DNA from: a virus | Direction: 5' to 3' (one strand) | DNA: 30,506 nt | Virus record (IMG/VR): IMGVR_UViG_3300025853_000418 | Span: 1-30,506 of that record | In this document: in pieces, positions 4,950 through 24,262 of the stretch | How positions within the stretch are numbered: the stretch's first letter is position 1 | How the letters are laid out: each line of letters begins with the position of its first letter | Notes under the pieces: model-generated | The model's database searches: none | The model's input: only the letters and a program-made list of their open reading frames with translations | What the model was told of the DNA's origin: nothing | Translations under genes and position numbers: made by a program

Positions 4950-4961
4950 ACTCATTCCTTT

Positions 4962-5162: not shown

Positions 5163-5163
5163 T

Positions 5164-6563: not shown

Positions 6564-6584
6564 TTTTGTATTCCTTTTCTCTTT

Positions 6585-6619: not shown

Positions 6620-6643
6620 GCAATAGGAAAAGTGAATAAAAAT

Positions 6644-7009: not shown

Positions 7010-7032
7010 ATCTGTTCCTTTCTCACGTTTTT

Positions 7033-7138: not shown

Positions 7139-7142
7139 TGTA

Positions 7143-7210
7143 CCCCCTAATAGATCCCCCCTATTTTTTACCCCCCCATACCTATACCTGTGGGGGAGAA
7201 GGGGGGGGTA
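7143..7210. other. C/G homopolymer tracts and strong hairpin
   Basis: Three C runs (7143-7147, 7156-7161, 7171-7177) are followed by two G runs (7192-7196, 7201-7208). TACCCCCCC (7169-7177) pairs with GGGGGGGTA (7202-7210). Such long G/C tracts are unlike the AT-rich surroundings. The minus strand has three G runs, one fewer than a standard quadruplex needs. Immediately downstream is an AT-only stretch (7225-7258) that would melt easily. Confidence 0.7.
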
Positions 7211-7289
7211 TGACAGTATGACATAAATAATAATAATAATATATATATATATATAATAACTATATAAATAAGGAGTATAGAGTAGATGA

Positions 7290-7339
7290 ATTATGGCAGA
7301 TTTGGTATATGCCATAAATATGCCATAAATGACATAAAT
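7290..7339 (-). repeat. Right cluster of repeats, mostly inverted (TGCCATAAAT)
   Basis: One direct copy, ATTATGGCA (7290-7298), is followed by TGCCATAAAT at 7310 and 7321 and TGACATAAAT at 7330, the reverse complement of the left-cluster unit, at 9-11 bp steps. Two weaker ATGACA units lie at 7210 and 7218. The remaining 90 bases before the small-terminase gene hold a TATATT (7381-7386) that could be a -10 box, with no clear -35 box. Confidence 0.75.
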
Positions 7340-7427: not shown

Positions 7428-7901
7428 ATGTCAGATGTCAAAACTAAAAATCCAGTCGGTAGACCGAAGTTCGAGATCACCGATGAAGTTTTGCTTAACG
7501 TAGAAAATCTTATGACCAAGGGATTAACGAAAGAACAGGCGGCTGGAATGCTAGGCGTTTCAGTGTCAACTTTCATGCTTCATCAGTCAGAAAATTCGGA
7601 ATTTTCGGATGCAATAAAAAGAGGACAGTCTCGTGGCATAGATGCCGTGACTAACGCGCTCTTTGAAAAGGCCACGATTGATAGAGATAATACAGCGATG
7701 ATATTCTTCCTGAAGAACAGAGCTGGGTGGGTGGACAAGCAAGAGGTTGCAACCACTGTCGAACAGAAACACGTCATAGATTTAACAAGGATACCAGATG
7801 ATCAGCTCAAATCAATTGAGGACGCATTTAGCAGGACTGACGTTGGAACAGGTGAGAGCGGAGAAGTATCGCAGATCATTGAGGGAATTTACGAAGGCTA
7901 G
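7428..7901 (+). CDS. terS: Terminase small subunit
   Basis: 157 aa; GAAAGG lies about 8 bases before the ATG. The N-terminus has the GRPKFEITDEVLLNVENLMTKG pattern and a helix-turn-helix (TKEQAAGMLGVSVSTFMLH, about 34-52). The middle has the typical oligomerisation region (AIKRGQSRGIDAVTNALFEKA) and the segment AMIFFLKNRAGWVDKQEV (about 88-105) frequent in small terminases. It recognises the phage packaging site and hands DNA to the large subunit. Its immediate position before the large subunit supports this. The repeat-rich region directly upstream is a plausible binding site (pac or cos). The C-terminal 35 codons overlap the start of the large subunit in another frame. Confidence 0.8.
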   Translation: MSDVKTKNPVGRPKFEITDEVLLNVENLMTKGLTKEQAAGMLGVSVSTFMLHQSENSEFSDAIKRGQSRGIDAVTNALFEKATIDRDNTAMIFFLKNRAGWVDKQEVATTVEQKHVIDLTRIPDDQLKSIEDAFSRTDVGTGESGEVSQIIEGIYEG

Positions 7902-9309
7902 TTGGCCTACGATTGAACCTGGCGTTCCCTTCAAGAACAACTGGCACATCGATGCGATCAGTGATCACCTTCAGGCTGTAGTCGAAGGCGACATCAAACG
8001 TCTGATTATAAACGTGCCACCTCGACATATGAAATCAATCAGCGTGGCTGTTGCTCTGCCAGCTTGGACGTGGGCGCACCAACCTCACAAAAAGTTTCTA
8101 TATGCATCTTACGCAAGCTCCTTGTCGATCAGGGATAGTACGAAGTGTAGAAGGTTAATCGACAGTCCGTGGTATCAGGCGCATTTTGGCGATAAGTTTA
8201 ATTTAACAGATGATCAAAACCAAAAGCAGAGATTTGAAAACGATAAGACAGGCTATCGAATCGCAACGTCAGTCGGTGGTGCGTTAACTGGTGATGGTGG
8301 TGATATCATATGCATCGATGATCCACACAACTCTGTAGAGGCAGATAGTTCTAAAGTGCGTGAAGGTGTATTGGATTGGTGGGATCAGGCCATGCAGACA
8401 CGACTAAACGATCCGCAGACTGGTGCATTTGTAATTATTATGCAGAGGCTACACGAACAGGATCTCACAGGTCACGTCTTGGCAAATCAACTTGGAGATG
8501 AGTGGGATCACCTAATGTTGCCTGCTCGTTACGAAGTGGGTGCGCCGAATCCGATGAAGTCGTCACTTGGGTTTACAGATCCAAGAACAAAGGAAGGTGA
8601 GTTGCTGTGGCCTGACAGAATTGACGAGAAAACTTTATCTATTCTGGAAAGATCTCTTGGCTCTTATGCATCTGCTGGTCAGCTACAGCAAAGGCCATCG
8701 CCAAAAGGTGGTGGTATTCTCAGGGCATCGTGGTGGGTTCCTTGGGAAAAGCAAGACTTGCCAGAGATAGAATATGTTCTTCAGTCATGGGATACTGCAT
8801 TCGAAGCCAAGGAAAGCTCTAGCTTTAGTGCCAGAACAACTTGGGGTGTATTCAGACACAAAGGCGCAATGTGTGCGATTGTATTGGAGGCTTGGTACGA
8901 TAAGGTGAGCTACCCAGAGTTAAGGCGGATTGCACAAGAGGCTTACGACGATTGGGAGCCAGACGCTGTGTTGATCGAGAAGAAAGCGTCAGGTCAATCT
9001 CTACTGCAAGATTTACGCATGGCTGGAATACCAGTTTTAGCTTATTCTCCTGATCGAGATAAGGAAGCCAGAGCGCACGCATCGAGCGCACTTTTAGAAG
9101 ACGGAAGAATTTACTACCCTTCTGATCGAAAATGGGCTAAAGATTTAATAGACATATGCGCGGCCTTTCCTGCACACCCCAACGATGACGTTGTTGATAC
9201 TTGTACACAGGCTTGGTTGCGTTTACGAAAAGGATGGTTTGTTGGTCACAGTGAAGACCCTGAAGACGACGAGCCAGTAGAAAAACAAAGGATTACGCTC
9301 TATGGCTGA
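7798..9309 (+). CDS. terL: Terminase large subunit (ATPase and nuclease)
   Basis: 503 aa. The ATPase domain has a Walker A-like PPRHMKS (74-80), Walker B IICIDDP (170-176) and the coupling motif IIMQRLHEQD (213-222). The RNase H-like nuclease domain has SWDTAFEAK (D332), LIEKKASG (E394) and NDDVVDT (D463, D464, D467). It pumps DNA through the portal and cuts concatemers. The start at 7798 has AAGGA 6 bases upstream, giving an unusually long 104-base overlap with the small subunit; GTG or TTG codons near 7842-7851 would shorten it, at the cost of N-terminal residues. The stop overlaps the portal start by 8 bases. Confidence 0.93.
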   Translation: MISSNQLRTHLAGLTLEQVRAEKYRRSLREFTKASWPTIEPGVPFKNNWHIDAISDHLQAVVEGDIKRLIINVPPRHMKSISVAVALPAWTWAHQPHKKFLYASYASSLSIRDSTKCRRLIDSPWYQAHFGDKFNLTDDQNQKQRFENDKTGYRIATSVGGALTGDGGDIICIDDPHNSVEADSSKVREGVLDWWDQAMQTRLNDPQTGAFVIIMQRLHEQDLTGHVLANQLGDEWDHLMLPARYEVGAPNPMKSSLGFTDPRTKEGELLWPDRIDEKTLSILERSLGSYASAGQLQQRPSPKGGGILRASWWVPWEKQDLPEIEYVLQSWDTAFEAKESSSFSARTTWGVFRHKGAMCAIVLEAWYDKVSYPELRRIAQEAYDDWEPDAVLIEKKASGQSLLQDLRMAGIPVLAYSPDRDKEARAHASSALLEDGRIYYPSDRKWAKDLIDICAAFPAHPNDDVVDTCTQAWLRLRKGWFVGHSEDPEDDEPVEKQRITLYG

Positions 9310-11770
9310 CCCAAATATTATACCATTTGCTGAAGGCGCACCTAGTGATGAGTTAATGATCGAGGAGCTTGCAGATGGCGATGTTCTGATTGGTGACCCA
9401 GAGTTAGATGCAATGGACGAGGCAGATGCCGCAGAATTTGATTCCAACTTAGCTGAACAGATGGATGAACGAGATCTCGCACGAAAAGCGCAAGAACTTG
9501 TAGGTTATTACGAAAATGATGAGGAAGCTCGGTCAGAGTGGAAGGAACGCTACAAAGAAGGATTGAAGACGCTCGATCCAGATGGCGGACTTGACGAAGG
9601 CGAAGATGAACGTGGCACACGCGGACTTTCAGTTGTAGTGCATCCGTTAATCGCAGAAGCGGCAACTCAATTCAATGCGAAGGCAATTGCAGAGCTTTAC
9701 CCATCAGGTGGGCCAGTTAAATCTGTAATCATAGGCAACCCAGACGAAGAGCTAGAAGAGCAAGGTCGTCGTGTTCGTGAGTTTATGAATTACCAAATCA
9801 CTCAGGAAATGCCTGAGTATTTCCCTGACTTAGATCAGATGCTATTCCACCTTCCGTTAATCGGTCATACCTTCAAGAAGGTTTGGTGGGATGTAAACAT
9901 GGATCGCCAATGCAGTAGTTTTGTGAAAGCAGAAGACTTTGTGGTAGCACCAGAAAGTAAAGACTTACACACATCGCCACGCTACACGCATATTATTCGT
10001 ATGCCAAAGAACGACTTCAATCGTTATGTTCAGAACGGATATTACCTACCGACTAAGTATGTTGGCGGAGATACGATTGATCCATCAGGTGATGTAATTG
10101 GCGAGATTGAAGGCGTCGATGAATACGATGATAGCAACGATGATGTAATGACACTGCTCGAAATGCATGTGTACGATTTGTTTGACGGATTCGATGGCGA
10201 AGAAATGGTTGATGGCGAATCTGACGATAATGCAGTTGCATTGCCGTATGTGATTACGATTGACTATGAAAACCAAAATGTTGTGAGCATTAGACGCAAC
10301 TGGAAGCAAGAAGATGAGATGAAACAACGCCGCGATTGGTTTGTGTCATATAAGTTCTTGCCAGGTTTAGGGTTCTATGGCTTTGGCTTGTACCACATGA
10401 TTGGTGGCTTGGGTAAAGCGGCAACTGGATCATTGCGTGCATTACTAGACAGTGCCGCATTCAGCAACATGCAAGGTGGATTTAAATTGCGTGGTCGTGT
10501 CCAAGGTGGCGACATGCAGATTAGTCCAGGCGAGTTTAATGATATCGACAGTACAGTTGATGATATCAACAAAGCTATTATGCCATTGCCGTTTAAGGAG
10601 CCAAGTGGATCTCTGTTTAATTTGCTAGGCTTTATGGTTGATGCTGGTCAGAGATTTGCAAGTACGGCAGATTTAAATGTCGGAGATGTAAATCCGAATG
10701 CACCTGTTGGCTCAACTGTTGCGTTGATCGAGCAAGGATCGAAGGCATTCAGTGCGATACACAAGAGATTGCATTATGCACAAGGCCAAGAGTTTAAGTT
10801 GTTAGCGCAATTAAATGCTGAAAATTTACCTGACGAGTTTAGTTTCTCACAAGCTGGTGCGGATGATATCATCTATCGAACTGACTTTGATGATCGAATT
10901 GATATCATACCAGTTAGTGATCCAAACATATTCTCAACAGCACAGCGCATTGCACAGGCACAAGCTGTTCTGGAGATGTCACGATCTGCTCCACAATTCC
11001 ATGATTTATACGAGGCATACAAACGTATGTACGAAGCACTTCGGATTCCGAACATAGATCAAATATTGCAGAAGCCAGAAGAAGCTGTGCAAATGGATCC
11101 AATTGACGAGAATATGAGCGTATTGTACGGCAAAGGTATTCGTGCATTCCCAGAGCAAGATCACGATGCACACATTGCAGTTCACATGCAGTTCTTGCAA
11201 GATCCGTCATTAGCAGGAAATCCTGGTGCGAAAGCTATGCAACCTGTATTAATCGCACATATAGCAGAACATATTGCGCTTCTCTATCGTCAACGCATGG
11301 AGGCAAGTATCAATATGCCTATGCCCATGTTGCCAAACTTCAAAGATCCTAAGTTTAAATTTGAAGCAGTAGATCCAGAGATGGATCGTCTAATCAGTCA
11401 ACGTGCGGCTGAAGTTGTGAAGGCATCACCTCAGATGAAACAAATCGAGGCAATGAAAGGCATGATGGGCGGACAACAAGGTCAGCAAGGCAATCCACTG
11501 CAATATGCACAGGAACTTGCTAAACTTGAAACCGAAGCACTCAAGGCTAGAACGCAAGCACAAATTCAGGCGGATCAAGCTAAAGCAAAATCAAATATCG
11601 AGATCAAGCAAGCTGAAGCGAGACAAGACATGGAGATCGAAATGGCGAAGGCGCAAGCTGACATGCAAGCCAAGATCACTAAGTTGGAGGCAGACCTACA
11701 GCTAGAACGAGAAAAAAATAACGCTAAAATTCAAATGGAGGCAATGAAGAATGTACCCCCCACAGTATAA
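9302..11770 (+). CDS. Portal protein
   Basis: 822 aa, directly after the large terminase and overlapping it by 8 bases. After an acidic N-terminus (1-60) comes the portal core with RSEWKERYKEGL, TRGLSVVVHPLIAEA, KAIAELYPSGGP, an HTFKKVWWDVN strand, EDFVVAPESKDL and, further on, GFYGFGLYHMIGGLGKAATG, LRALLDSAAFSN and PNAPVGSTVALIEQG. This order is that of the large P22-like portals in marine podovirus genomes. The dodecameric portal is the DNA entry and exit pore and the nucleus of head assembly. The last about 100 residues are Gln-rich and strongly coiled-coil (repeats of the type QAQADMQAK), as in other long portals with a barrel-like extension. The C-terminus overlaps the next gene by 20 bases. 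Confidence 0.88.
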   Translation: MADPNIIPFAEGAPSDELMIEELADGDVLIGDPELDAMDEADAAEFDSNLAEQMDERDLARKAQELVGYYENDEEARSEWKERYKEGLKTLDPDGGLDEGEDERGTRGLSVVVHPLIAEAATQFNAKAIAELYPSGGPVKSVIIGNPDEELEEQGRRVREFMNYQITQEMPEYFPDLDQMLFHLPLIGHTFKKVWWDVNMDRQCSSFVKAEDFVVAPESKDLHTSPRYTHIIRMPKNDFNRYVQNGYYLPTKYVGGDTIDPSGDVIGEIEGVDEYDDSNDDVMTLLEMHVYDLFDGFDGEEMVDGESDDNAVALPYVITIDYENQNVVSIRRNWKQEDEMKQRRDWFVSYKFLPGLGFYGFGLYHMIGGLGKAATGSLRALLDSAAFSNMQGGFKLRGRVQGGDMQISPGEFNDIDSTVDDINKAIMPLPFKEPSGSLFNLLGFMVDAGQRFASTADLNVGDVNPNAPVGSTVALIEQGSKAFSAIHKRLHYAQGQEFKLLAQLNAENLPDEFSFSQAGADDIIYRTDFDDRIDIIPVSDPNIFSTAQRIAQAQAVLEMSRSAPQFHDLYEAYKRMYEALRIPNIDQILQKPEEAVQMDPIDENMSVLYGKGIRAFPEQDHDAHIAVHMQFLQDPSLAGNPGAKAMQPVLIAHIAEHIALLYRQRMEASINMPMPMLPNFKDPKFKFEAVDPEMDRLISQRAAEVVKASPQMKQIEAMKGMMGGQQGQQGNPLQYAQELAKLETEALKARTQAQIQADQAKAKSNIEIKQAEARQDMEIEMAKAQADMQAKITKLEADLQLEREKNNAKIQMEAMKNVPPTV

Positions 11771-12033: not shown

Positions 12034-14244
12034 ATGATCAGTAATTTATTTCCAAAGAATCCAGTTTTTATGTGCTTCGGTGGTGGAGGTTCAGGTGGAT
12101 CTAGTTCTGGAGCGGCAAGTAGTGGCGGAGGATCAAGGGCAGATAGAAAAGGTGCGGCGGCAGTTTTCTCTGCACCAAAGCCAGTATATACGCCACCAAA
12201 GCCAACAGTAGTTAATACATCAAGAGATAGACGAGATCGCACTCCTGCTGTAAATTATGGAGCTTTACCATCATCTCCCCCTCCTAGTGTTATTGCTTCT
12301 GCTCCCTCAGTAACTGATAATTTAAATAATGTTCAGCTTGTTTCTAACGAAGATCCTTTTAAAACTAATGACATAGTAAATGTAGCAGAAAATGCTCTTA
12401 ACAATGTTTCAGGCATAGTAAATGTCGCAGAAAATGCGTTGGATACTCCTAGATATATGACATCTGGAACACCGAGTCTTCGTCCAAAAGATTTAAGCAT
12501 CGATCCAATATCTATGGATGGTGACAACGGCGCACTTGGTCAAGTTAGTAGATATGGTGTTTATGCTGGCGATGGATTTGAATTTAAAGATAGTGGTCAA
12601 GGATTCCAAACAAGAACATACACTGGCGCACCAGAAACAATGAACAATCTTGGTCAAGATGTCATTATAGCAAATGAAATTGCCTATGGTAGCCCAGAAG
12701 ATAGGGAAAGATTTAGAAAAATAGGTCAAGCATCATTTGATGAAGGCAGTGAGTTTGCCCTTTCACCAGGGTCTGCAAATGATGGAGATTGGGTAAATTT
12801 TATTAAAACAGGTAAATTTGGTGCAAGTCCATCATTCGTTGATCAATATGGATTAAGAAATGCTGAACCTGTAGTTGGAGGTGAGCAAGTGGGTGCATTG
12901 TCGTCGGTTGCGTCAGGAAACGCTCCTCAGTTTGCGACGACGACAGCAAATTACACTGGACTTGAGAATGTATACAACTCGCAAGGCGAGGAAATGGCTA
13001 ACTTCTTTACACCAGATGATGGAGCTTCATATGTTCGTGGTCAGCTTATAGATGATGCTACAGGTCTACCATTAAAGCCTGGTGATAAAGCATCATCAAC
13101 TGGCAAAGTAATTCGTGGTACTTTTGATAATCAAACAAATAACATTGAAGGATTCGGTGGGCTTGGTGGTGCGCCGATATTAAATTCAAGTAGAGAGACA
13201 ATGGCAAACCTACTAACGCCTGGTGATAGAGCCGCTTATGTAAATGGTCAGTTGGTTAATACTATGACTGGTGAATCACTAGAAGGTGGTGGCTATACTT
13301 ATGATGCTGAAGGTAAAAATCCAGACTACGTTTACGGCGTATCTGATGACTTCAGCAACAATCTACAAGTTGATACAACTGGTATGGATACAGGTGCGGC
13401 TAATGCGGCAATAGCAAATCAAATAATGAAAAGAGATATACCACCAAGTGATTTGGCATACTTTACATCATTCTTGCCAGGTATGGCTGTTCCTTTAGTT
13501 GGTGGCTATTTAGGTGAGAAGATGTTGGAAGGTGGCATCAATGATCGAAAAGCTGTTATAGCTGAACAGACTGCGGCGTTACAAGCTGGAGCTACTCCAA
13601 TATACAACGAAAAAGGTGAGTATGTTGGGTACAACGATGGTACAGCCACTGTAAATTATGATCCAAGTAGCTATAGAGGCAGTTCAAAAGACAGAGTTGA
13701 TCAAATCCCGACATCTACTTTTTCCCAAGCAAGAGATGATCGTATGAGTAGATCAGACGATAACAAGACAACTCTGAACGATAGATCAAGAAGTGACGTT
13801 GCTAATGATATATTCAGTAGATACTACAAAGGTGGGTCAGGCGTAGGTATGCCAGATTGGTTGCGTAGATACGCATCTGGAATAAGAATTGATGAATTGC
13901 TAACAAAAGAAACTTTAGACGATGGTACAGTAATGTATAAAACTCCAGACGGAACATACATTGAAGAAAAATATTTAACTGGCGCAAGAATGAGTGAAGA
14001 CGAAGATAGTACGAGAATGCCAGAAGGCACTGATAAAAAAGGTGAATTTAATAATGAGTTAATACCTGAAATAGATCAAGGTTTTTATGACTCTGACATA
14101 TACAAAAACTTTATAAATGATGAAGCTAATAGTGTAGGTAGTATGGATGTGTATGATAGCCCTTATTTTGGAAGAATAAGTTCTGGTAGTTTTGGTAAAG
14201 CGCAAGATAGAGCATACGAAGAATATTTAGCTAGTTTAAATTAA
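12034..14244 (+). CDS. Large Gly/Ser-rich protein, probable internal virion protein
   Basis: 736 aa, coupled 4 bases after the previous stop; the RBS is weak, and Met 13 (MCFGGGG) is an alternative start typical of similar phage proteins. Residues 13-40 are a Gly/Ser stretch around a lone Cys, then a Pro-rich linker. Two internal duplications are visible: IVNVAENAL occurs twice (about 112-136), and a 27-residue unit beginning MANFFTPDD is repeated later as MANLLTPGD. A hydrophobic helix-like segment FTSFLPGMAVPLVGGYLGEKML lies near 485. The C-terminal part has DEDS/acidic clusters. No enzymatic motif is seen. Position after the portal and the single hydrophobic segment suggest an ejected or internal head protein. 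Confidence 0.6.
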   Translation: MISNLFPKNPVFMCFGGGGSGGSSSGAASSGGGSRADRKGAAAVFSAPKPVYTPPKPTVVNTSRDRRDRTPAVNYGALPSSPPPSVIASAPSVTDNLNNVQLVSNEDPFKTNDIVNVAENALNNVSGIVNVAENALDTPRYMTSGTPSLRPKDLSIDPISMDGDNGALGQVSRYGVYAGDGFEFKDSGQGFQTRTYTGAPETMNNLGQDVIIANEIAYGSPEDRERFRKIGQASFDEGSEFALSPGSANDGDWVNFIKTGKFGASPSFVDQYGLRNAEPVVGGEQVGALSSVASGNAPQFATTTANYTGLENVYNSQGEEMANFFTPDDGASYVRGQLIDDATGLPLKPGDKASSTGKVIRGTFDNQTNNIEGFGGLGGAPILNSSRETMANLLTPGDRAAYVNGQLVNTMTGESLEGGGYTYDAEGKNPDYVYGVSDDFSNNLQVDTTGMDTGAANAAIANQIMKRDIPPSDLAYFTSFLPGMAVPLVGGYLGEKMLEGGINDRKAVIAEQTAALQAGATPIYNEKGEYVGYNDGTATVNYDPSSYRGSSKDRVDQIPTSTFSQARDDRMSRSDDNKTTLNDRSRSDVANDIFSRYYKGGSGVGMPDWLRRYASGIRIDELLTKETLDDGTVMYKTPDGTYIEEKYLTGARMSEDEDSTRMPEGTDKKGEFNNELIPEIDQGFYDSDIYKNFINDEANSVGSMDVYDSPYFGRISSGSFGKAQDRAYEEYLASLN

Positions 14245-14695: not shown

Positions 14696-14995
14696 ATGGC
14701 TGAAGTAAATATCGGAAACATGGAAGACAATGCAATTCTCTTTGAAGAGAAAATGGGCTTCCCACATGACGCTGATGGATTAGAACTATCAGATGATCAA
14801 CTCGTTAACTTTTTATTGTTGTGCCACCAAGAGCATGTACTCGGCGACGAATACGATGAAGATGACGAAGAAATGATGTACGAAGATGACGAAGAAATGA
14901 TGGAAATGCCAGATGGCAGAGATGTCAAAGTAAAAGTTATGAAACTTGATGGCGGTAGCGTCCACGACATGATGAACAAACTTCTAGGAGGCTAA
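14696..14995 (+). CDS. Small very acidic protein, 99 aa
   Basis: AGGAGG precedes the ATG by 5 bases. The middle (about 51-72) is a run of Asp/Glu with a repeated EDDEEMM block, encoded by a short direct DNA repeat. The N-terminus shares the FEEKMGFP pattern with FEQKFGMP in the 178-aa protein at 20035. Its strong negative charge contrasts with the very basic small proteins that follow, so it may pair with them. Function unknown. Confidence 0.6.
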   Translation: MAEVNIGNMEDNAILFEEKMGFPHDADGLELSDDQLVNFLLLCHQEHVLGDEYDEDDEEMMYEDDEEMMEMPDGRDVKVKVMKLDGGSVHDMMNKLLGG

Positions 14996-14996: not shown

Positions 14997-15125
14997 ATGC
15001 CATACAGTAAGTATTCCCCAAAACAAAAAAAGTTAGCGGCGGTTGCAGGTAATAAAAAGAAAATTACTGGTGCTGATTTAAAAGCTGTTTCGAAACGTAA
15101 GAAGAAAAAGAAAGCTAAGAAGTAA
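14997..15125 (+). CDS. Tiny Lys-rich protein, 42 aa
   Basis: Starts MPYSKYSPKQKKLAAVAG and ends with KRKKKKKAKK. AGGAGG lies 5 bases upstream of the ATG, and its stop overlaps the next start (TAATG). More than a third of residues are Lys, so it must bind nucleic acid or acidic partners non-specifically. A protein of this MPYSKYSPKQ pattern is familiar from marine phage head modules, where it has no assigned role. Part of a set of small basic genes in this cassette. Confidence 0.6.
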   Translation: MPYSKYSPKQKKLAAVAGNKKKITGADLKAVSKRKKKKKAKK

Positions 15126-16459
15126 TGAGTATATTAAACTTTGGAAGACGCGCATTACAAGAAGCTGTTGATTATGCAGGTAAAAAAATAGGTGCGCTTT
15201 CAGATCTTGGTGACACTCCATCTCCTGCACCTTTAAGTATGTATGATGCACCTGCTGGATCTAAACCAGAATATCGTGGAGCGGCTCCAGATAGATCTGA
15301 CCTTACATACCTCCGATACAAGCCAGCAAAAGGCTACAGTGAACGTGTTCAAACCTCTCTTGAAGCATTAAGAGATCCAGAAAATCCAGTTAGAGCAGAG
15401 CTTCTTAAAGACATTCGCCGTGGCGAAGAGATTGGCGGCAATGATTGGTACAACACAGAAGAACTAAGAGATTGGTTTGTAGGCGAACTTGGTGAAGCAC
15501 AAGGTGATGCTGAGTGGCGAGAGTTCTTGTATCTTATGGGTACGACTAGCCCAGGTTCTAATGTTCCTATGAATATGGCTAGTGCTTCGGCAACGCGAGG
15601 TAGATTTTTTAATGATCCAGAATATGTTGATCAATTATTAAATGTTGAAAATTTAAAAGATGCTCAAGAAATAGCAAAAACACGTCCAAAAGGTTATGGT
15701 CACAAGACTGCTGGTTTACAAGAAATGAACACATCTAAATTATTAAAAGGTGTGTATGGAGCTTTGCCAGAGCCTGATGTTTCTCCAGGTAAAGGATCTT
15801 GGGCAGAACAACCAAAGCCAAAAGGATTTACAAATAGTTTACTTGGAAACCGAAGAAACATTGCGGCTGACTTGCATTTTACACGTTACATGGCAATGGC
15901 ATCTAAACACCCAGATTGGTTGAATACAGGAACAGATGTTGGTTATGATTTTATGGAAAATGTTATAAATACATTCCCAGAAGCAGAACAATATTTTTCA
16001 GTTCGTAAATTTAAATCAGGAAAAGTTGAAAAAGAAATACCATCATTTAACTTTAAAAAAGCGGCTAAAGAAGGCGCAATAGATCTTAATGTACCTATAG
16101 ATGAAACAGGTAAAACAATTGCCGATGTGCCACAAGCATGGGCGCAAATGCCAAACAATAATGAGTATGGTGCATTTGAAGACTTTATAAACGAATTAGC
16201 TGATGAATTAGGTCAAACTCCAGCGCAAGTTCAAGCTAATATGTGGATGGGTGGCGCAGACAGAACAGGTGTTGCTGAAAGTAGCCAAGGCACATTTATG
16301 GAATTAATCCGTGAAAGAGCTAAAAATAAAGCAATAAAAGAAAATAAAACCCCTAACGAAGTTTTGCAAAATTTTATAAGAAATGGTGGATTTTTAACAT
16401 TACTTGGTGGAACTGGAGTTGGTGCGCTTAATAACATTGCCGAAGAGGATAAAAGTTAA
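15125..16459 (+). CDS. DUF7178-like / polyvalent-type protein, 444 aa
   Basis: TAATG coupled on both sides. The N-terminus (1-25, ILNFGRRALQEAVDYAGKKI) is an amphipathic basic helix. The best marked region is WYNTEELRDWFVGELGE (108-124) with AEWREFLYLMGTTSPGS after it (129-145), and further on NNIAADLHFTRYMAMAS-like helices; this is a pattern I associate with DUF7178, found in phage and prophage polyvalent proteins. No catalytic residues can be named. The C-terminal 40 residues hold GGFLTLLGGTGVGAL, a short hydrophobic stretch. Position and domain type suggest a protein packaged in the head and delivered with the DNA, which is inference. Confidence 0.55.
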   Translation: MSILNFGRRALQEAVDYAGKKIGALSDLGDTPSPAPLSMYDAPAGSKPEYRGAAPDRSDLTYLRYKPAKGYSERVQTSLEALRDPENPVRAELLKDIRRGEEIGGNDWYNTEELRDWFVGELGEAQGDAEWREFLYLMGTTSPGSNVPMNMASASATRGRFFNDPEYVDQLLNVENLKDAQEIAKTRPKGYGHKTAGLQEMNTSKLLKGVYGALPEPDVSPGKGSWAEQPKPKGFTNSLLGNRRNIAADLHFTRYMAMASKHPDWLNTGTDVGYDFMENVINTFPEAEQYFSVRKFKSGKVEKEIPSFNFKKAAKEGAIDLNVPIDETGKTIADVPQAWAQMPNNNEYGAFEDFINELADELGQTPAQVQANMWMGGADRTGVAESSQGTFMELIRERAKNKAIKENKTPNEVLQNFIRNGGFLTLLGGTGVGALNNIAEEDKS

Positions 16460-16626
16460 TGCCTGCAAAGAAAAAAGCTAAACGAGACGCATGTTATAGA
16501 AAAGTAAAAGGCAGATACACACGCAATGGTGGTACATGGCCTTCTGCTTATGGGTCAGGTGCTTTAGTTAAATGTCGCAAGGTAGGCGCAAAAAATTGGG
16601 GTAAGAAAAGTGCCAAAAAAAAGTAG
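16459..16626 (+). CDS. Small basic two-Cys protein, 55 aa
   Basis: The ATG overlaps the preceding stop (TAATG). The sequence contains DACYRKVKGRYTR, then WPSAYGSGALVKCRKVGA and a Lys-rich tail. The Cys pair with the WPSAYGSG motif is a known pattern of small marine-phage and large-virus proteins (DUF5872-like). The function is not known to me. The end overlaps the next gene by 17 bases. Confidence 0.65.
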   Translation: MPAKKKAKRDACYRKVKGRYTRNGGTWPSAYGSGALVKCRKVGAKNWGKKSAKKK

Positions 16627-16840
16627 TAACAGCTTAAAAACTTGGTTCTCTCAAAACAATGGCAAAGGTTGGGTTGACTGCAAGACAGGTAAGCCTTGTG
16701 GTCGTAAGTCACGCACAAAGACTAAACGAGGTTACCCAGCATGTAGACCAACTATGGCACAATGCAAAAGCAAGGCGAGTAAAACAGCCACTAAGAAAAA
16801 GACATCTAAAAAGCGCATAAGTTGGAAAGGCAAGAAGTAA
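16610..16840 (+). CDS. Small basic Cys-rich protein, 76 aa
   Basis: It begins with GTG at 16610, inside the end of the previous gene. Motifs are LKTWFSQNNGKGWVDCKTGKPCGRK and RGYPACRPTMAQC, four Cys in pairs that could bind a metal or form disulphides, followed by a basic tail (KKKTSKKRISWKGKK). The combination of a WVDCKTGKPCGR segment and a GYPACRP segment recurs in marine phages next to the WPSAYGSG protein, so the two are probably partners. Function unknown. Confidence 0.65.
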   Translation: MPKKSSNSLKTWFSQNNGKGWVDCKTGKPCGRKSRTKTKRGYPACRPTMAQCKSKASKTATKKKTSKKRISWKGKK

Positions 16841-16986
16841 TGGTTAAGAAGACAGTACAAGCACCAAAAGGTTACCATTGGATGAAGTCTGGTAAAGGCT
16901 ATAAGCTGATGAAGGGCGAATACAAACCACATAAAGGTGCTGTAAGAAAAGCGTCATTTGATATTCAGAAAGTACATAAGAAGTAA
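16840..16986 (+). CDS. Tiny basic protein, 48 aa
   Basis: TAATG overlaps on both sides make this a convincing gene in spite of its size. It contains YHWMKSGKGYKLMKGEYKPH and ends with KVHKK; Lys, Gly and aromatic residues dominate. The YHWM...GKGYKLM pattern is one I recall from other phage head modules, without function. Confidence 0.6.
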   Translation: MVKKTVQAPKGYHWMKSGKGYKLMKGEYKPHKGAVRKASFDIQKVHKK

Positions 16987-17675
16987 TGTTTGGCTCCCTA
17001 AGTAAATTAGCTATGTCTCTGGGTCGTGAGTTGTTTGGTCTTAATGTTAAGTCCAACCAAAAACTTGCTGACATTGCAAAGCAAATTGGAATAGACACAG
17101 ATGACATTGCATCTGCATCTGATGAAGCTATTCAGGCTACATTGGAAACTGCCGCTCGTTCAGGTGTTATCGATCCTCGTGAAGCTAACGCAATTACAAT
17201 ACAAATTGCCAAAGATGCACAACCTACACTGAAAGTGGACAACCCAAACGAAGATTGGCTTGCAAGCAAAATAAGATTTGCTGAACGCTCAAAAGAGAAT
17301 GCGCCTCCAAATACATATCGGGCAAACTTAGGTAACTCAGATGGTGTAACTGGATACTTTAGCAAGCCAATAGAAATTGATCCAAATATGCTTGTAGATG
17401 TTAGAGGCTCAATGGGTGAAGAGAGCTTTAGACCTGACGCAAGAAAAATGCAAGATCTCAGGGAAAGTATTGCAGAGGGTGGCTACGAGGCTTCTCCAAT
17501 TCTTATCCATGTGCGTGAAGATGGCGTGCCATTTGTGGTTGAAGGCAACCATAGGATCATTGAAGGCATAGAAAGTGGTAGGTCAACTATACCTGTAGAA
17601 CTTAAATATCTTAGAGGTTCTGAAGATATAGAAGATGGCATACTAAGCCCAACTAATTTAGGAGTTAAACGATAA
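16986..17675 (+). CDS. ParB/Srx-fold nuclease-like domain protein, 229 aa
   Basis: Coupled by TAATG on both sides. Residues 1-20 (MFGSLSKLAMSLGRELFGLN) form an amphipathic helix like those at the start of the 444-aa and 636-aa proteins. The C-terminal half is a ParB-like domain: PIEIDPNMLVDVRG (128-141), MQDLRESIAEGGYEASPILI (155-174), VPFVVEGNHRIIEGIESG (181-198) and IPVELKY. The GNHR motif is the equivalent of the GxxR box of ParB/Srx proteins, which include nucleases, ATPases and sulfiredoxin. Such domains are frequent in phage polyvalent proteins. A DNA-cutting or regulatory role in the newly infected cell is possible but unproven. Confidence 0.7.
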   Translation: MFGSLSKLAMSLGRELFGLNVKSNQKLADIAKQIGIDTDDIASASDEAIQATLETAARSGVIDPREANAITIQIAKDAQPTLKVDNPNEDWLASKIRFAERSKENAPPNTYRANLGNSDGVTGYFSKPIEIDPNMLVDVRGSMGEESFRPDARKMQDLRESIAEGGYEASPILIHVREDGVPFVVEGNHRIIEGIESGRSTIPVELKYLRGSEDIEDGILSPTNLGVKR

Positions 17676-17932
17676 TGGCAAAATACCAAGGTAGAACTGT
17701 AACTCTAAACAAGCCACGCAGAATAGCTAAAGGTGAACCATCTTATGGCAAGAAGAAGTCTGTTGTATATGTTACTGATGGCGATAAAGTTAAGAAAGTT
17801 ACCTTTGGGGACGCCAATATGAAGATTAAGAAAGCACAGGCAGGCCGCAGAAAGAGCTTCAGAGCGCGTCATAATTGTGATAACCCTGGCCCAAAGACAA
17901 AGGCCAGATACTGGTCATGTAAAGCGTGGTAA
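17675..17932 (+). CDS. Small basic protein with SCKAW tail, 85 aa
   Basis: TAATG coupled to the gene before. Starts KYQGRTVTLNKPRRIAKGE, has a strand segment VVYVTDGDKVKKVTFGD (about 31-47) and ends with the pattern FRARHNCDNPGPKTKARYWSCKAW, which is characteristic of a small phage protein family seen in marine head modules. Two Cys only. It is basic throughout and may bind DNA. I know of no assigned function. Confidence 0.65.
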   Translation: MAKYQGRTVTLNKPRRIAKGEPSYGKKKSVVYVTDGDKVKKVTFGDANMKIKKAQAGRRKSFRARHNCDNPGPKTKARYWSCKAW

Positions 17933-17933
17933 T

Positions 17934-19844
17934 ATGGTTAACTTAGTAAAAACTTTTGGATCTCTAGCAAAATTGTTTAGCCCATCGTTGAAGGCGGCTA
18001 AAGATTTGACTCAGAATAAAGGTTCTTACGAACAGTTAAAAGCTATGATGATTAAGAATGGCGCAAAGGCAGATGAGCTTGAGTGGTCTGGCGCAGATAA
18101 TTTCTTTGAAGGTAAGAAAGTTACCAAAGATGAAATTGTTGAATATCTTAGTCAAAACGATCCAAGATTATATACAGAGCGAAGAGTGGCTCCTGAAGGG
18201 TTAACTGGTGGGAATGATAATGGTAGAACTCTTTTTGAAAATCGTGATATTGCTGTAGAAGAAGCAATGCAAGATACAACTATGGTCAATGAGGCTAAGT
18301 TGGAGGTTCTTGATGATATGAAGTCTAACCCATCTGATCGTGAAACATTTTATGAATCTGGTGAATTTAGTAATTCAGAGTTTTTAGAAGCCATGAAAGA
18401 AGAAGGTGATGATAAATTAGATGCTTACTTGGAAAGACGAGTTCGTAACGAACTTGGCCAAGAATTTTTGCTAGACCCACCAGAGTTTATGAATAGATTT
18501 AACATACAGCAACCTAATAGTTTTGAAGCAGGTGACACACAATATTCAAGTTATTTTCCAGCAGGCGCAGAACGATACATGGAAAATTTGTATCAATACA
18601 CTGATCCTACAGAGAAAATACCTTTTAATCAATTTGCTGGCAGTAAGCACTTTGGCGACGATGATATTGGTACAATATTTCATACTCGTACAGGAGATTT
18701 CCCAGTAGACTCAGCTTCTGAGACAGGTGGAGGTTTTGGATCAATTGCTAGATATGTAGGTGAAATACAATCAGATCCACAGCAAGCTCTAAAAGGGGAT
18801 AGAAAACCGCGTAGCTACAATGAAACCATATTAGTTTCTAGGCTAAATGACCTAAACGAAAAAATGATAGCTGACAAAAAGAAACTTAGAGAAAATAATC
18901 GAAAGATGTTTGCCAATAATTTAAGCGAAGAAGAGTTGGGTAGACTTGGGCGTGAAGCGGCTATTTTTCAAATAAACAAAATAATTAAAGACCCTACAAA
19001 GCAAAACGATAGCTTTAAAGACATGGCGAGTGCTTTTAAAATTAAAGATGAGCTTCCATTAGATACATCATTAATGAATGAAGATGAACTGGAGTTTTTG
19101 CACTTACAACTTTACAACTTTGACGAGTTTAGAGGTGTAAATCTACTTGCCAGTGATGACAAAAGAAAAGCTGATGAACTACTGTCTGCTAGAATGCAAG
19201 CCGCTTGGACTAGAGAACCATTGGGCGTAGAGAATGTTCAGGAATATATGGCTTCAAAGCCAGTAGATTGGCTAAATGAAGGCTTCAGAAGATATTATGG
19301 CAATTTAAATGCTGATAATATGCTACTTGAAATGGATATTGCCGATACTGTTAGTGAATACAGAAAAATAAAAGATGATCACTTTGAGGGTGGTGAATCT
19401 TATAAGAATCCAGGCGCACCTTTCCTATCATCTCAAAACAAGTGGGTGGATCAGGCACTCAATAGATCTATTATGGATGCAGTAAATGATCCTAATATTG
19501 ATTATTTAACATTTCCTGACGATATAGGTGCTATTGGCAAAGTTGGTGGTACAGACAACCCAAGAGAAGGCGCAGTAAACTTTTATCAACGTGATGTTCA
19601 GAACAGATTAAAGAAACTTCTTGGTAAATTTGATAAAAACGCTCAAATAGAGCAAATAGACTTGTCACCACCATCAATTCAAGGTGAAACTACTGATATG
19701 TTTAGAACTAAAGGTTTTAAGATAACGCCAGAATTTAGAGAGCAAGTAATTAAAAAGGGTATACCTACTTATGCACTTCCACCTGTAATTGGTTATGGTG
19801 CTTTAAATAGTATGGGTGAAAGCGAAAACGGAGATCAAATGTAA
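17934..19844 (+). CDS. Polyvalent-protein-like (LPD-type) protein, 636 aa
   Basis: The frame is open from 17877, but the Met at 17934 is chosen because it follows the previous stop by one base and starts an amphipathic helix (VKTFGSLAKLFSPSLKAAK) like those of neighbouring proteins. Residues 41-72 (KNGAKADELEWSGADNFFEG, then KKVTKDEIVEYL) match a segment typical of large polyvalent proteins of phages and conjugative elements. GEIQSDPQQ (276-284) corresponds to the EIQSDWHQ-like motif, NPGAPF and DYLTFPDD (492-530) to the later block, and FKITPEFREQVIKKGIPTYA (595-614) to the usual C-terminal ITPEMREKVL end. Polyvalent proteins are injected with DNA and act on host defence or DNA. Which activity this one has cannot be read from sequence. 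Confidence 0.7.
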   Translation: MVNLVKTFGSLAKLFSPSLKAAKDLTQNKGSYEQLKAMMIKNGAKADELEWSGADNFFEGKKVTKDEIVEYLSQNDPRLYTERRVAPEGLTGGNDNGRTLFENRDIAVEEAMQDTTMVNEAKLEVLDDMKSNPSDRETFYESGEFSNSEFLEAMKEEGDDKLDAYLERRVRNELGQEFLLDPPEFMNRFNIQQPNSFEAGDTQYSSYFPAGAERYMENLYQYTDPTEKIPFNQFAGSKHFGDDDIGTIFHTRTGDFPVDSASETGGGFGSIARYVGEIQSDPQQALKGDRKPRSYNETILVSRLNDLNEKMIADKKKLRENNRKMFANNLSEEELGRLGREAAIFQINKIIKDPTKQNDSFKDMASAFKIKDELPLDTSLMNEDELEFLHLQLYNFDEFRGVNLLASDDKRKADELLSARMQAAWTREPLGVENVQEYMASKPVDWLNEGFRRYYGNLNADNMLLEMDIADTVSEYRKIKDDHFEGGESYKNPGAPFLSSQNKWVDQALNRSIMDAVNDPNIDYLTFPDDIGAIGKVGGTDNPREGAVNFYQRDVQNRLKKLLGKFDKNAQIEQIDLSPPSIQGETTDMFRTKGFKITPEFREQVIKKGIPTYALPPVIGYGALNSMGESENGDQM

Positions 19845-20035
19845 TGGCTAAAGCGGCAGTTAAAAAAGTAGCGCAAGCAGAGATCAGAGCGGCAAAGAGC
19901 TTCTTAGAACGCCGTGGTCTAAAGTCTGATGACATTTCTCCCAGAAAGTTTGCAATAGCCGCTAAAGAGCTAGATAAAGGCTTTGCGGATACATTAAAGA
20001 TACTGGCGCGTGAGTTGTCAGGTGGGAGTGTGTAA
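19844..20035 (+). CDS. Small basic helical protein, 63 aa
   Basis: TAATG overlaps at both ends. Ala/Lys-rich helices (AKAAVKKVAQAEIRAAKSFLE, FADTLKILARELSGG) with a middle ISPRKFAIAAKEL. No family recognised. Its charge and small size align it with the other basic proteins in the cassette, although it lacks their Lys-only tails. Confidence 0.6.
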   Translation: MAKAAVKKVAQAEIRAAKSFLERRGLKSDDISPRKFAIAAKELDKGFADTLKILARELSGGSV

Positions 20036-20571
20036 TGGCTGATGAAGGTGCATTGTCTGGTGTAGGCGAAGTAGATTACGAAGACTACTTGTTTGAACAA
20101 AAATTTGGTATGCCTCGCGCTCAGTATGAGAAAGAGCAAGGCACAATACAAAACAGCATGACGCCTACTAGAGATAGATTAAACGTATTTCTTGAAAGAA
20201 ATACTCCACTTAATCCTAATCAAGTAGACAATTTAATTGGTGGTCAAGGACGTGGTTTTTTAGACATGGGTTTATCTGATGTAACTGTGTTTCCTATGCT
20301 TTTAGATTCTTATGATGCTTACAATAGATTGCAAAAAACACGAAAGACTGATGAATTTTCAGATTCAGAAGAAGGTGTAATTACAAGTAGTCCATTTATA
20401 TTAAAAGTTGCTAATATACTTTCATCTAAAGATAATAGATTTAAAGATTACTATGATGGTAAAAAATCTGATATTGCTACTATTGCCTTTGGCCCACTTG
20501 GTTTTTTAGGAATGAAGGCAGGAGCATTAAAAATTCTTTCAAAGTTTAAGAAAGGTGCAATGTACAGATGA
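20035..20571 (+). CDS. Hypothetical protein, 178 aa, cassette member
   Basis: TAATG coupled. It begins acidic (GEVDYEDYLFEQKFGMPRAQYEKEQG), has a middle with LDMGLSDVTVFPMLLDSYDAYN, and ends in a Gly-rich hydrophobic stretch (ATIAFGPLGFLGMKAGALKIL) with a basic tail (SKFKKGAMYR). The hydrophobic end may contact membrane during ejection, which is inference. The first motif is shared with the 99-aa acidic protein at 14696. Overlaps the next start by ATGA. Confidence 0.6.
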   Translation: MADEGALSGVGEVDYEDYLFEQKFGMPRAQYEKEQGTIQNSMTPTRDRLNVFLERNTPLNPNQVDNLIGGQGRGFLDMGLSDVTVFPMLLDSYDAYNRLQKTRKTDEFSDSEEGVITSSPFILKVANILSSKDNRFKDYYDGKKSDIATIAFGPLGFLGMKAGALKILSKFKKGAMYR

Positions 20572-20830: not shown

Positions 20831-20960
20831 AAGTATGGTTGAAGGTCGGATTTCCGATTTCAACTCATATCAAAAAAACGTGGGTATATCTGAAGGCTTA
20901 ATGCAAGCGTCAGATATTATCCTCGAAACGATTAAAAATATAAACGAAGAGGATGTATAA
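20763..20960 (+). CDS. Small helical phage protein, 65 aa
   Basis: ATG at 20763 is chosen over GTG at 20754 because AGGAGG lies 8 bases upstream. The protein is almost all helix: VSDLLQQIRKNLEKEKLEIA, ISDFNSYQKNVGISEGLMQA and SDIILETIKNINEE. This size and pattern, with a conserved DFNSYQ and G...GL.QA.D, is common just upstream of scaffold and capsid genes in marine phages, without known function. It overlaps the next gene by 8 bases. Confidence 0.65.
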   Translation: MTVSDLLQQIRKNLEKEKLEIAKSMVEGRISDFNSYQKNVGISEGLMQASDIILETIKNINEEDV

Positions 20961-21366
20961 CGTGTCTCATCAACATGACAAAATATATAAAGACGAAGAA
21001 ACTGATTCAGAGATCAGTTCAAAGCAACTGCCGATACCTTTAAATTGGAAGGTCTTGGTTCAACCTAATCAGGTTAAAACTAAAACAGCAGGTGGTTTAC
21101 ATCTGCCAACAATATCACAAGACAATGAAGAATACCTTACCGCTCATGGCACAGTTTGCGCCTTGGGTGATTTAGCGTATCGGGACAGAGACACTGGCAA
21201 GCGATGGCGTGCCGATGTAAGTCCAAAGGTCGGAGATCGCATAACCTATGGAAAATATGCTGGTCAGAAACTTGTTGTAAAAGGCGTTAAGTTCCTTCTG
21301 CTAAATGATGATGAGATAACATCAATTTTGCCAGAAGGTGTTGAAGTCGCCGCGTATGTGGGGTGA
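20953..21366 (+). CDS. groES-like: Phage GroES-like co-chaperonin (cpn10), 137 aa
   Basis: The sequence has the phage cpn10 pattern: PLNWKVLVQPNQVKTKTAGG (about 29-48), LPTISQDNEEYLTAHGTVCA, then KVGDRITYGKYAGQKLVVKG (about 92-111) and FLLLNDDEITSILP. GroES caps the GroEL chamber; phage versions such as T4 gp31 adapt host GroEL for folding the capsid protein. Its place immediately before scaffold and capsid genes fits that use. No GroEL gene is present. The start at 20953 has GAGG directly adjacent; a GTG at 20962 with better spacing is an alternative. The first 25 residues are a charged extension not usual in bacterial GroES. Confidence 0.75.
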   Translation: MYNVSHQHDKIYKDEETDSEISSKQLPIPLNWKVLVQPNQVKTKTAGGLHLPTISQDNEEYLTAHGTVCALGDLAYRDRDTGKRWRADVSPKVGDRITYGKYAGQKLVVKGVKFLLLNDDEITSILPEGVEVAAYVG

Positions 21367-22286
21367 ACCAAATGGTAGAAAGCAATGTAATGAAAGAAAT
21401 CGAAGACGAAATCAAAAGGGCTAAAGGAAGCTCTGAAGATTTTGAAATCGAAGTCGTAGAAGATCCAGTTCAGGAAGCGGCTGAAGAGGCGAAGGATGTT
21501 GCAGAAGAAAAGCAACAAGCACAGCCAGAACAAGAAGAAGACGACTATGGGCCGAAAGTCCAGAAGCGTATTCAAAAACTTGTCAGTCAACGTAGAGACG
21601 CTGAAATACAATCTCGACAGATACAAGAGCAAAATGCACAGCTTCAGAAACGACTAGAGCGACTAGAGCAAGGCTCTCAGCAATCCGCAGAGCAACTGTT
21701 CAATGATCGCTACAGCCAAACCAAACAGGCTTTACATAAGGCTGTGGAGGAAGGTGACACAGAAGCTCAAGTAAATTTCCAAGAGCAAATGGCTGATATG
21801 AGAGCGGCTATGCGAATTGCAGAAATGCAAAAGCAACAACAACAGCAACGTGCTGTATCTCCAACAGTTGGGCGCGCACAACAAGCTGTGCAAAACCCAG
21901 CTCCACAAAAAGCTATGTCGTGGTGGCAACAAAACAATTGGTTTAATGCCGCTGGCTTTGAGCGTGAAACTGCGGCGGCTCGTGCAATTGATGTCCAACT
22001 TGACTTAGAAGGTTACGACAAAAATTCTGATGAATATTACGATCATCTAAACAATCGTTTACAAAAGGTTTTTCCTGAGTTATCTTCGGGATCAAGTCCA
22101 AGTAGACCACGAGCAAAAAGTAGACCCCCAGTCGCCCCAACTACAGGCGGTTCGTCAAACTACAAGGGCAATAGAGTGAGAATGTCGCAAGAACAACTCA
22201 AAATGGCTAGAGAACTTGGAATCACTGATGAAAAAGGTCTTAAACAATATGAAGCTGAAATACGGCGTCAAAAAGGAGCCAGATAA
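21363..22286 (+). CDS. Head scaffolding protein
   Basis: 307 aa with GTG start overlapping the previous stop (GTGA); the ATG at 21372 is equally possible. Long acidic and Gln-rich coiled coil (about 20-150: AAEEAKDVAEEKQQAQPEQE, KRIQKLVSQRRDAEIQSRQI), Pro-rich hinge (VSPTVGRAQQ, APQKAMSWWQQNNWF), and a basic C-terminal region (RPRAKSRPPVAPTTGG, MSQEQLKMARELGI) able to bind the capsid shell. These features and the location two genes before the decoration and capsid genes are those of procapsid scaffolds. Coupled by TAATG to the next gene. Confidence 0.8.
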   Translation: MNQMVESNVMKEIEDEIKRAKGSSEDFEIEVVEDPVQEAAEEAKDVAEEKQQAQPEQEEDDYGPKVQKRIQKLVSQRRDAEIQSRQIQEQNAQLQKRLERLEQGSQQSAEQLFNDRYSQTKQALHKAVEEGDTEAQVNFQEQMADMRAAMRIAEMQKQQQQQRAVSPTVGRAQQAVQNPAPQKAMSWWQQNNWFNAAGFERETAAARAIDVQLDLEGYDKNSDEYYDHLNNRLQKVFPELSSGSSPSRPRAKSRPPVAPTTGGSSNYKGNRVRMSQEQLKMARELGITDEKGLKQYEAEIRRQKGAR

Positions 22287-23362: not shown

Positions 23363-24262
23363 ATGGCTATGAATAGAGCAAGTTTTGCTAAAATGCTTGA
23401 GCCAGGTCTAAACACCTTGTTTGGCCTCGAATATGACAGTTACCCTGCTGAATACGAAGCAGTCTTTGAATCAAACACTTCACAAAAAGCGTTTGAAGAA
23501 GATGTACTTTTATCTGGCTTCGGTTCTGCTCCAACAAAGAACGAAGGATCTGCTGTATCATATGATTCTGCGTCTCAACAATGGACTGCACGTTACCAAC
23601 ACGAAACGATTGCATTGGCATTCTCAATCACTGAGGAAGCTGAAGAAGATGGTCAGTATGGCTCAATCGCTTCTCGTTATACAAAAGCACTTGCACGCTC
23701 AATGGCTTCCACTAAGGAAATCAAAGCGGCAAATGTTTTAAATAACGCAACAACTGCAAATGGTGGAGATGGTACTACTCTTTTAAGTACATCTCACCCA
23801 ACGCAAAATGGTAACCAGTCTAACACGTTAGCAACTGCGGCTGACTTGTCTGAGACATCACTAGAGTCAATTCTTATCCAAATAGCGGATATGAAAGATG
23901 ATCGTGGTCTTAGAATTGCCGCTCAAGGTACGCAGTTGGTTATCCCAACAGCTTACACTTTTGTTGCAGAGCGTTTGTTGGAATCACAACTTCGCACAGG
24001 TACTGCGGACAATGACATCAATGCGATTAAATCTGGCGGCTACTTGCCAAAAGGTTATCATGTGATGCGTCGTCTGACAGATGCAGATGCGTTCTTTGTG
24101 ACAACTGATGTTCCAGATGGACTGAAAATGTTCCAACGTTCGCCTATGAAAAAAGGCATGGAAGGTGATTTCGAAACTGGTAACGTGCGCTACAAAGTGC
24201 GTGAGCGTTATTCTTTCGGCTTCACTGACTGGCGTGGTATCTTCGGATCAGAAGGCGCGTAA
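23363..24262 (+). CDS. Major capsid protein (gpT-like, HK97 fold expected)
   Basis: 299 aa, strong RBS (GGAAGGA). Sequence landmarks are FAKMLEPGLNTLFGLEYDSY (8-27), FESNTSQKAFEEDVLLSGFG, EGSAVSYDSASQQWTARYQH, the central ALAFSITEEAEED (about 84-96), LSTSHPTQNGNQSNTLA and the end YSFGFTDWRGIFGSEG. This order of motifs is that of the Mu gpT-like major head subunits common in marine podoviruses. It assembles the icosahedral shell with the scaffold at 21363. It is followed by a strong terminator, so it ends a transcription unit or gives differential expression. Confidence 0.88.
   Translation: MAMNRASFAKMLEPGLNTLFGLEYDSYPAEYEAVFESNTSQKAFEEDVLLSGFGSAPTKNEGSAVSYDSASQQWTARYQHETIALAFSITEEAEEDGQYGSIASRYTKALARSMASTKEIKAANVLNNATTANGGDGTTLLSTSHPTQNGNQSNTLATAADLSETSLESILIQIADMKDDRGLRIAAQGTQLVIPTAYTFVAERLLESQLRTGTADNDINAIKSGGYLPKGYHVMRRLTDADAFFVTTDVPDGLKMFQRSPMKKGMEGDFETGNVRYKVRERYSFGFTDWRGIFGSEGA

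Follow-up and report, generated by a model that had tools for sequence, protein, structure and literature searches.

A 30.5-kb virus record (IMGVR_UViG_3300025853_000418, positions 1 to 30,506; hereafter the window), which represents a tailed phage related to Roseobacter phages CRP-901 and CRP-902, carries a cassette of four adjoining slots in its head module. The slot contents are exchanged between near-identical phages while the small proteins standing between them (anchors) stay 97–100% identical. In the window, slots 1 to 4 hold P1 (444 amino acids [aa]), P2 (229 aa), P3 (636 aa), and a 178-aa protein. The interpretation that we favor, with a probability of about 0.6, is that the cassette supplies effectors of the polyvalent-protein repertoire, each encoded by its own gene and open to exchange, which short terminal tags bring into the head and which leave it along with the DNA.

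The exchange was evident from near relatives. The bounding and intervening proteins were almost unchanged (portal, 96–100% identity; 85-aa HVA1-type protein, 99–100%; 63-aa protein, 98–100%; GroES, 98–100%), while P3 fell to about 60–63% in several of the same relatives and P2 often matched in its N-terminal third alone. Locus L007, for example, matched the window at 99% in the portal, 100% in the HVA1-type protein, 100% in the 63-aa gene product, and 99% in GroES, while its P3 was 63% identical, its P2 matched in the N-terminal third, and P1 was replaced. Slot 1 of L004, L007, L011, L012, and CRP-902 held an unrelated protein of 427–437 aa (broken into two frames in L011), and in slot 3 of CRP-901 and CRP-902, P3 was replaced by a PBECR5 protein whose tail was of the same type. 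Of 42 loci, 12 contained P1, and many of the remaining loci were fragments that ended short of slot 1. The survey comprised 181 loci, with same-contig duplicates included, and contained 326 cargo open reading frames (ORFs) with a minimum length of 120 aa, which represented 224 unique sequences; one scan took in 80 of 210 relatives and another 80 of 349, and start codons were picked by a rough ribosome-site score. Per-locus figures overcount, as several loci came from one contig, and per-family figures refer to unique protein sequences. Because cluster 0 had fused P2 and P3 via chimeras, families were recounted by domain.

The slots of relatives contained domains above their Pfam cut-offs (given in parentheses), namely PBECR5 at 57.5 bits (25), ART-PolyVal at 32.9 bits (31.2), GNAT at 21.5 bits (20.7), and DUF7178 at 74.8 bits (27). 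The window's own P1–P3 scored below the cut-offs for domains of the polyvalent repertoire. An earlier note on this DNA had proposed that polyvalent-protein domains are split here into separate head-module genes; this proposal was supported, mainly by the slots of relatives, and also by the P3 fold described below. No relative turned up when bacterial genomes were scanned with A4 and A1, and comparison of A5 with PDB returned one unrelated phosphatase (E 0.016). In the cassettes of L059 (1910–2803) and L145 (11841–12731), we also observed a protein of about 298 aa with a HEVGH zincin-like motif, for which the Pfam matches were all sub-threshold.

In slot 2, the exchange took place within a single gene. 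Across relatives, six or more kinds of tail followed its N-terminal carrier of about 80 aa: the ParB-like GNHRI-type domain of the window, ParBc_2-like domains in L149 and L073 (21.9 and 21.7 bits; cut-off, 23.6), a DGRHR-type domain in L171, GNAT in CRP-902 and L145, ART-PolyVal above the cut-off in L136, and unidentified domains in L150 and L008; in L004 and L007, almost nothing followed the carrier. In L054, a ParB domain followed the long N-terminus found ahead of P3 in other loci. The ParB/Srx superfamily is characterized by a G-x-H-R box, and this box was invariant as EGNHRI in all 12 P2 members, all of which also matched phrog_1033 (best E 1.5e-5). The Pfam ParB models did not match P2, and no meaningful sequence match to P2 was found in PDB. 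The ParB-like label previously given to the 229-aa protein was supported by the PHROG match and the box and left unsupported by Pfam. Judged from its sequence, P2 is likely a ParB/Srx-like DNase or NTPase.

Unrelated cassette proteins shared short sequences at their N-termini. The start MANP[VI]K was found on gp65 (PBECR5 type), gp66, gp68 (carrier plus GNAT), and gp72 of CRP-902, and in CRP-901 gp66 starts with MANPVK and gp68 with MGNPLK. A six-frame scan for M[AG]NP[VIL]K returned two occurrences in CRP-901, four in CRP-902, and no others; all were in cassette genes, the bodies of which differed within each genome. In phage T4, a short N-terminal peptide of this sort is carried by non-homologous internal proteins; here it stood on four CRP-902 and two CRP-901 proteins, which would be internal under our interpretation. 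A common start was also found in L069 on an ART-PolyVal-like protein (27.2 bits; cut-off, 31.2) and the adjoining PBECR5 protein. The N-terminal tags of gp65 and gp66 were identical at 15 of 19 residues, 7 of which were encoded by different codons. These synonymous differences ruled out recent copying as the source of the common tags, which look old and kept. The hydrophobic moment of the N-terminus averaged 0.44 in effectors and 0.31 in core proteins (family means; Mann–Whitney P 0.0015). In L211, which belongs to another phage group that also has P3, neighboring proteins of 581 and 816 aa were alike in their first 29 residues only (45%, E 0.001). This suggests that lineage-specific tags may be common, in which case injected effectors could be found by the common ends of unrelated head-module neighbors.

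The C-terminal tag is a run of hydrophobic residues containing GAL or GTL, close to the end of the protein. Among proteins of at least 150 aa with a complete C-terminus (fragments were dropped), it was present in 25 of 27 P3 proteins, 11 of 12 PBECR5-type proteins, 8 of 8 P1-type proteins, and 3 of 3 DUF7178 proteins, as well as on the ART protein of L069 (1/1) and in L136 (1/1), and 16 of 17 core families had 0 matches. The C-termini in the window were GTGVGALNN in P1 and VIGYGALNS in P3, both closing on a brief polar or acidic stretch. Common terminal tags on otherwise unrelated proteins fit co-targeting to the head. Two further observations concern protein ends. In L013, a P1-type gene (78–1508) and a P3-type gene (1508–4066) are direct neighbors and both products terminate in LLGG[IM], which may represent a third kind of tag. 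The 44-aa Lys-rich gp63 of CRP-901 (L026, 10275–10409) is similar over its first ~29 residues to the N-terminus of the major head protein (38%, E 0.006).

P1 scored 15.2 bits against DUF7178 (PF23802), for which the Pfam gathering score is 27, and sub-threshold DUF7178 matches were obtained for 7 of 11 P1 family members. The P1 motif K[PV]KGFxNxLLG...NIAADxHF parallels HKVRNFFNN...VTIDTHA of true DUF7178 proteins, and L134 is intermediate between them. Full membership of DUF7178 was rejected as the cut-off was missed; P1 and DUF7178 may still be distant kin, given that they share the motif K..F.N..(V/A)DxH and that L134 lies between them. No sequence match to P1 was found in PDB. The predicted P1 model (predicted local distance difference test [pLDDT], 67.6) gave a single structural row over Z 3, the human MutY homologue 3n5n (Z 4.0; root mean square deviation, 5.5; 172 aligned). 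We treat this weak similarity to a MutY-type glycosylase as a lead and not as an assignment. As a weak proposal, P1 might belong with DNA-acting proteins of DUF7178 type and might have a HhH-GPD glycosylase fold.

Searches for P3 in Pfam, PHROGs, PADLOC, PDB sequences, and a set of 50,697 annotated phage records were all negative, and the sub-threshold Pfam matches among its relatives were scattered and were not used. A tblastn search with the long P3 relative L051 found none, and with L013 the sole match was 158 residues in two cyanophage "lysin" genes. The predicted P3 model (pLDDT, 74.9) showed a mixed fold with a 190-residue helical insertion (about 295–483), and its comparison with BFVD matched parts of large phage proteins with E values down to 1.9e-16 (16 matches with E ≤ 1e-3); one BFVD match was named "Large polyvalent protein associated domain-containing." Outside the helical insertion, the order of strands and helices in the model resembled that of GNAT acetyltransferases. 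In a conservation set de-duplicated to 40 rows, with added rows trimmed to the matched stretch, R252, E277, Q279, S280, D281, W504, and Y551 were unchanged in all 40. Tentatively, P3 may be an enzyme with a GNAT-like core, in which E277 and Y551 are invariant. Longer forms of P3 (848–1189 aa) occupied slot 3 in other members, the extra part being N-terminal. In a second phage group (L204–L227), P3 was observed within a protein of ~780–850 aa that starts with MN[LF][IL]DF, mostly ends in GGLMGYGGL, and precedes tail-type genes.

In the interpretation that we favor, the cassette would be made late, together with the head proteins, and the short terminal tags would draw the effectors into the prohead. 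The tagged effectors would then be packaged alongside the genome and enter the next cell together with it; there, bodies of ParB, RNase, ADP-ribosyl-transfer, acetyl-transfer, or DNA-acting type would aid takeover or blunt defense. We infer head targeting by the tags, packaging and ejection of the cassette proteins, and a benefit via host takeover or counter-defense.

Several results weigh against this interpretation. The N-termini in the window lack MANPVK, P2 and P3 having FGSL[SA]KL alone in common; the tag patterns were defined after inspection of the sequences, and the N-terminal tag count takes in close relatives. The C-terminal tag was not universal in the cassette, with counts of 0/15 for P2-ParB, 0/2 for P2-GNAT, 0/20 for the hydrophobic slot-4 protein, and 5/27 for the alternative slot-1 protein, and it appeared on the small core protein p11751 in 8 of 43 cases; the hydrophobic GAL tail could also be a membrane anchor. 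PADLOC gave no defense or counter-defense match for any of the 8 proteins scanned. As for the bodies, hhalign compared P1 with DUF7178 at a probability of 4% over 32 columns, which also speaks against the DUF7178-like label. Plain Foldseek of P3 against PDB returned noise alone (best E 1.9), and many GNATs matched the P3 model at VIA Z values of 5.4–7.2 over residues 75–610, under the stated noise level of 8. GNATs carry an acetyl-CoA loop, R/Q-x-x-G-x-G/A, after strand 4, and the canonical loop was not seen after the GExQSD strand of P3 (by eye, the strand ends GExQSDxxQ in A1). With no loop seen and Z too low, assignment of P3 to the GNATs as a member was rejected.

We weighed other explanations of the same arrangement. 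The proteins are unlikely to be structural internal components of the head or the ejection machinery (acting in DNA condensation, the core, or head-size control), with their variation reflecting relaxed constraint and no arms race. Such a role would suit genes that lie between portal and capsid among Lys-rich small proteins, and DarA of phage P1 is both a scaffolding and an anti-restriction protein; however, the slots hold unrelated catalytic domains (ART-PolyVal, PBECR5, and GNAT). Furthermore, HTVC023P, HTVC027P, DSL-LC04, and Caulobacter phage RW have the same portal–GroES–capsid order with smaller genes at the site and without the cassette. Because relatives with the same head order lack it, the cassette appears dispensable for building such a head, and because these distant phages have smaller genes there, it looks like an addition in the present group. 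In two of them, we observed other genes between terminase and portal, namely two large genes in HTVC027P (L184, 1953–6084) and a PcfJ-like gene in DSL-LC04 (L186, 10344–12821); this interval is possibly another place for cargo.

We consider it quite improbable that these are late accessory genes acting in the producing cell, in superinfection exclusion or late host control, whose products are never packaged and are directed to the membrane by the tags. Although the C-terminal tags are hydrophobic and the alternative occupant of slot 4 is a hydrophobic protein, the genes stand in the head string, their repertoire is that of predicted injected proteins, and the N-terminal tags are amphipathic with K, unlike signal peptides. 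Descent of P1–P3 by decay from an ancestral giant polyvalent protein has very little probability. The larger P3 forms of 848–1189 aa in the same slot of other members might be taken as remnants of such a protein, but these forms gain an N-terminal region and no fused P1 or P2, the frames are intact and translationally coupled, and the seven P3 residues are invariant; decay was rejected on the retention of frames and invariant residues.

The comparison with known systems separated what has precedent from what appears new. Solo genes for large polyvalent protein associated domains, GNAT, and DdrB-ParB beside virion genes have been reported (Iyer et al., 2017; PMC5512222), and the polyvalent proteins described there share with the cassette both the repertoire across the slots of this and related phages (ART-PolyVal, PBECR5, GNAT, and ParB-like) and the position beside late virion genes. 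In contrast, the cassette has one effector domain per gene, four adjoining slots, and common end tags. Polyvalent proteins combine at least two domains with differing activities in a single chain (Iyer et al., 2017), whereas P1 and P3 have one body each and P2 has the carrier and a ParB-like domain. Section 6 of the same paper notes that polyvalent proteins depart from the organization of secreted toxins, in which an N-terminal delivery part precedes a variable C-terminal toxin (PMC5512222); slot 2 of the cassette resembles this layout, which those polyvalent proteins do not follow.

Phage P1 packages a separate Dar set (DarA, DarB, DdrA, DdrB, Hdf, and Ulx) that is co-ejected and counters restriction (PMC12810830), and its DdrB has a ParB-type domain (PMC5512222). 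The cassette, if packaged, would likewise comprise several separate internal head proteins including a ParB-type domain, although packaging in phage P1 depends on DarA and Hdf, and the account of that set mentions no common short tag where it deals with these proteins (PMC12810830). In T4, the first 10 residues of IPIII suffice as a capsid targeting sequence, and a short N-terminal peptide is placed on otherwise divergent proteins, with cargo varying among relatives (PMC9026906). The T4 propeptides are removed by proteolysis (PMC9026906). Unlike the T4 internal proteins, the cassette also has a C-terminal tag and bodies that are polyvalent enzymatic domains. The Dar set and the T4 internal proteins provide a precedent for packaged, co-ejected cassette proteins. 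CRP-901 and CRP-902 share this head module and also carry the cassette, although its slots are filled differently; their records call the cassette genes hypothetical or "nuclease," and section 3.2 of their paper is silent on the cassette. The suggestion that the split form is undescribed therefore needs narrowing, since solo genes (PMC5512222) and the packaged Dar set (PMC12810830) were already known, whereas the open-licence PMC papers searched yielded no description of slot-swapping with common terminal tags. The part that appears novel is the toxin-like slot 2 together with the terminal tags on unrelated effectors that link the slots.

The gene order of the window is given in Table 1. P1, P2, and P3 adjoin late virion genes, lying between the portal and the major head protein, and small basic or acidic genes are interspersed among them between portal and GroES; the HVA1 label of the 85-aa protein comes from the CRP-901 and CRP-902 records. 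The three proteins described in the earlier note were all present, as ORFs of 444, 229, and 636 aa, with a 178-aa ORF at the end of the stretch that it covers; GAKADELEW, GEIQSD, and ITPEFREQV were found in the 636-aa protein, and the note's claim of coupling was correct: the stops of the 444-, 229-, 636-, and 63-aa genes overlap the next ATG by one base (starts at 16459, 17675, 19844, and 20035). The frames of the P1–P3 region were retained in many relatives. Placement between portal and scaffold was confirmed on the portal side (phrog_1216); the scaffold is a plausible candidate that matches a PHROG of unknown function.

Table 1. Features of the head module and cassette in the window (identities refer to relatives)
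Feature	Position	Strand	Remarks
Terminase	7798–9309		
Portal, 822 aa; conserved left boundary	9302–11770	+	phrog_1216, E 7.5e-33; 86–87% identity to CRP-901/902
Acidic 99-aa anchor protein, conserved upstream of slot 1	14696–14995	+	identity x coverage 79–100 in near relatives
Slot 1, P1, 444 aa, DUF7178-like	15125–16459	+	amphipathic N-terminal segment, motif body, C-terminal hydrophobic GAL tag
55-aa basic protein; start on P1 stop	16459–16626	+	DUF5872-like, sub-threshold (Pfam 15.3 bits; cut-off, 27.5)
76-aa Lys-rich anchor protein	16610–16840	+	97–100% identity in L003–L012 where present
Slot 2, P2, 229 aa; ~80-aa N-terminal carrier and ParB/Srx-like domain (VVEGNHRI)	16986–17675	+	phrog_1033
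85-aa HVA1-family basic protein; near-invariant anchor	17675–17932	+	phrog_7595, E 4.6e-15; 99–100% in near relatives
Slot 3, P3, 636 aa (GAKADELEW / GExQSD / ITPEFR); C-terminal GYGAL tag	17934–19844	+	
63-aa anchor protein	19844–20035	+	98–100% in near relatives
Slot 4, 178-aa protein	20035–20571	+	swapped for a 175–184 aa hydrophobic protein in L007 and L011
GroES-like co-chaperonin, conserved, bounding the cassette on the right	20953–21366	+	Cpn10, 53.1 bits (cut-off, 21.1)
307-aa candidate scaffold before head genes	21363–22286	+	phrog_28737, unknown function
Major head protein	23363–24262		phrog_371, E 4.6e-23

Other regions of the window had features of their own. Positions 3121–3780 encode a Mom-like DNA modification protein (phrog_1384, E 4.3e-59), from which the phage DNA may be predicted to carry a modified base; such a base could matter for the action of an injected DNA-acting protein such as P1. 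Directly after the portal, a 736-aa low-complexity protein (12034–14244) is fast-changing in near relatives (median identity x coverage, 69), and its CRP-901 equivalent is two genes, one annotated as LysM. A block of small minus-strand ORFs at 4644–7315 separates the replication genes from the late module.

Beyond the packaging of the cassette itself, it is a fair possibility, though somewhat less likely than not, that tailed phages possess a delivery arrangement inside the virion that resembles polymorphic toxins: constant carrier and tag ends would address any effector to the head, and the bodies (ART, PBECR RNase, GNAT, three ParB-like kinds, DUF7178-like, and the GExQSD family) would be exchanged as hosts and defenses change. 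If the favored interpretation is correct, hypothetical proteins of an abundant marine phage group would become a delivery system open to testing, since the group has cultured members in CRP-901 and CRP-902, and domains known from giant injected fusions could work as separate, exchangeable parts. Common terminal tags on unrelated head-module neighbors would then provide a simple rule by which new injected effectors could be found and proteins of choice loaded into phage heads.

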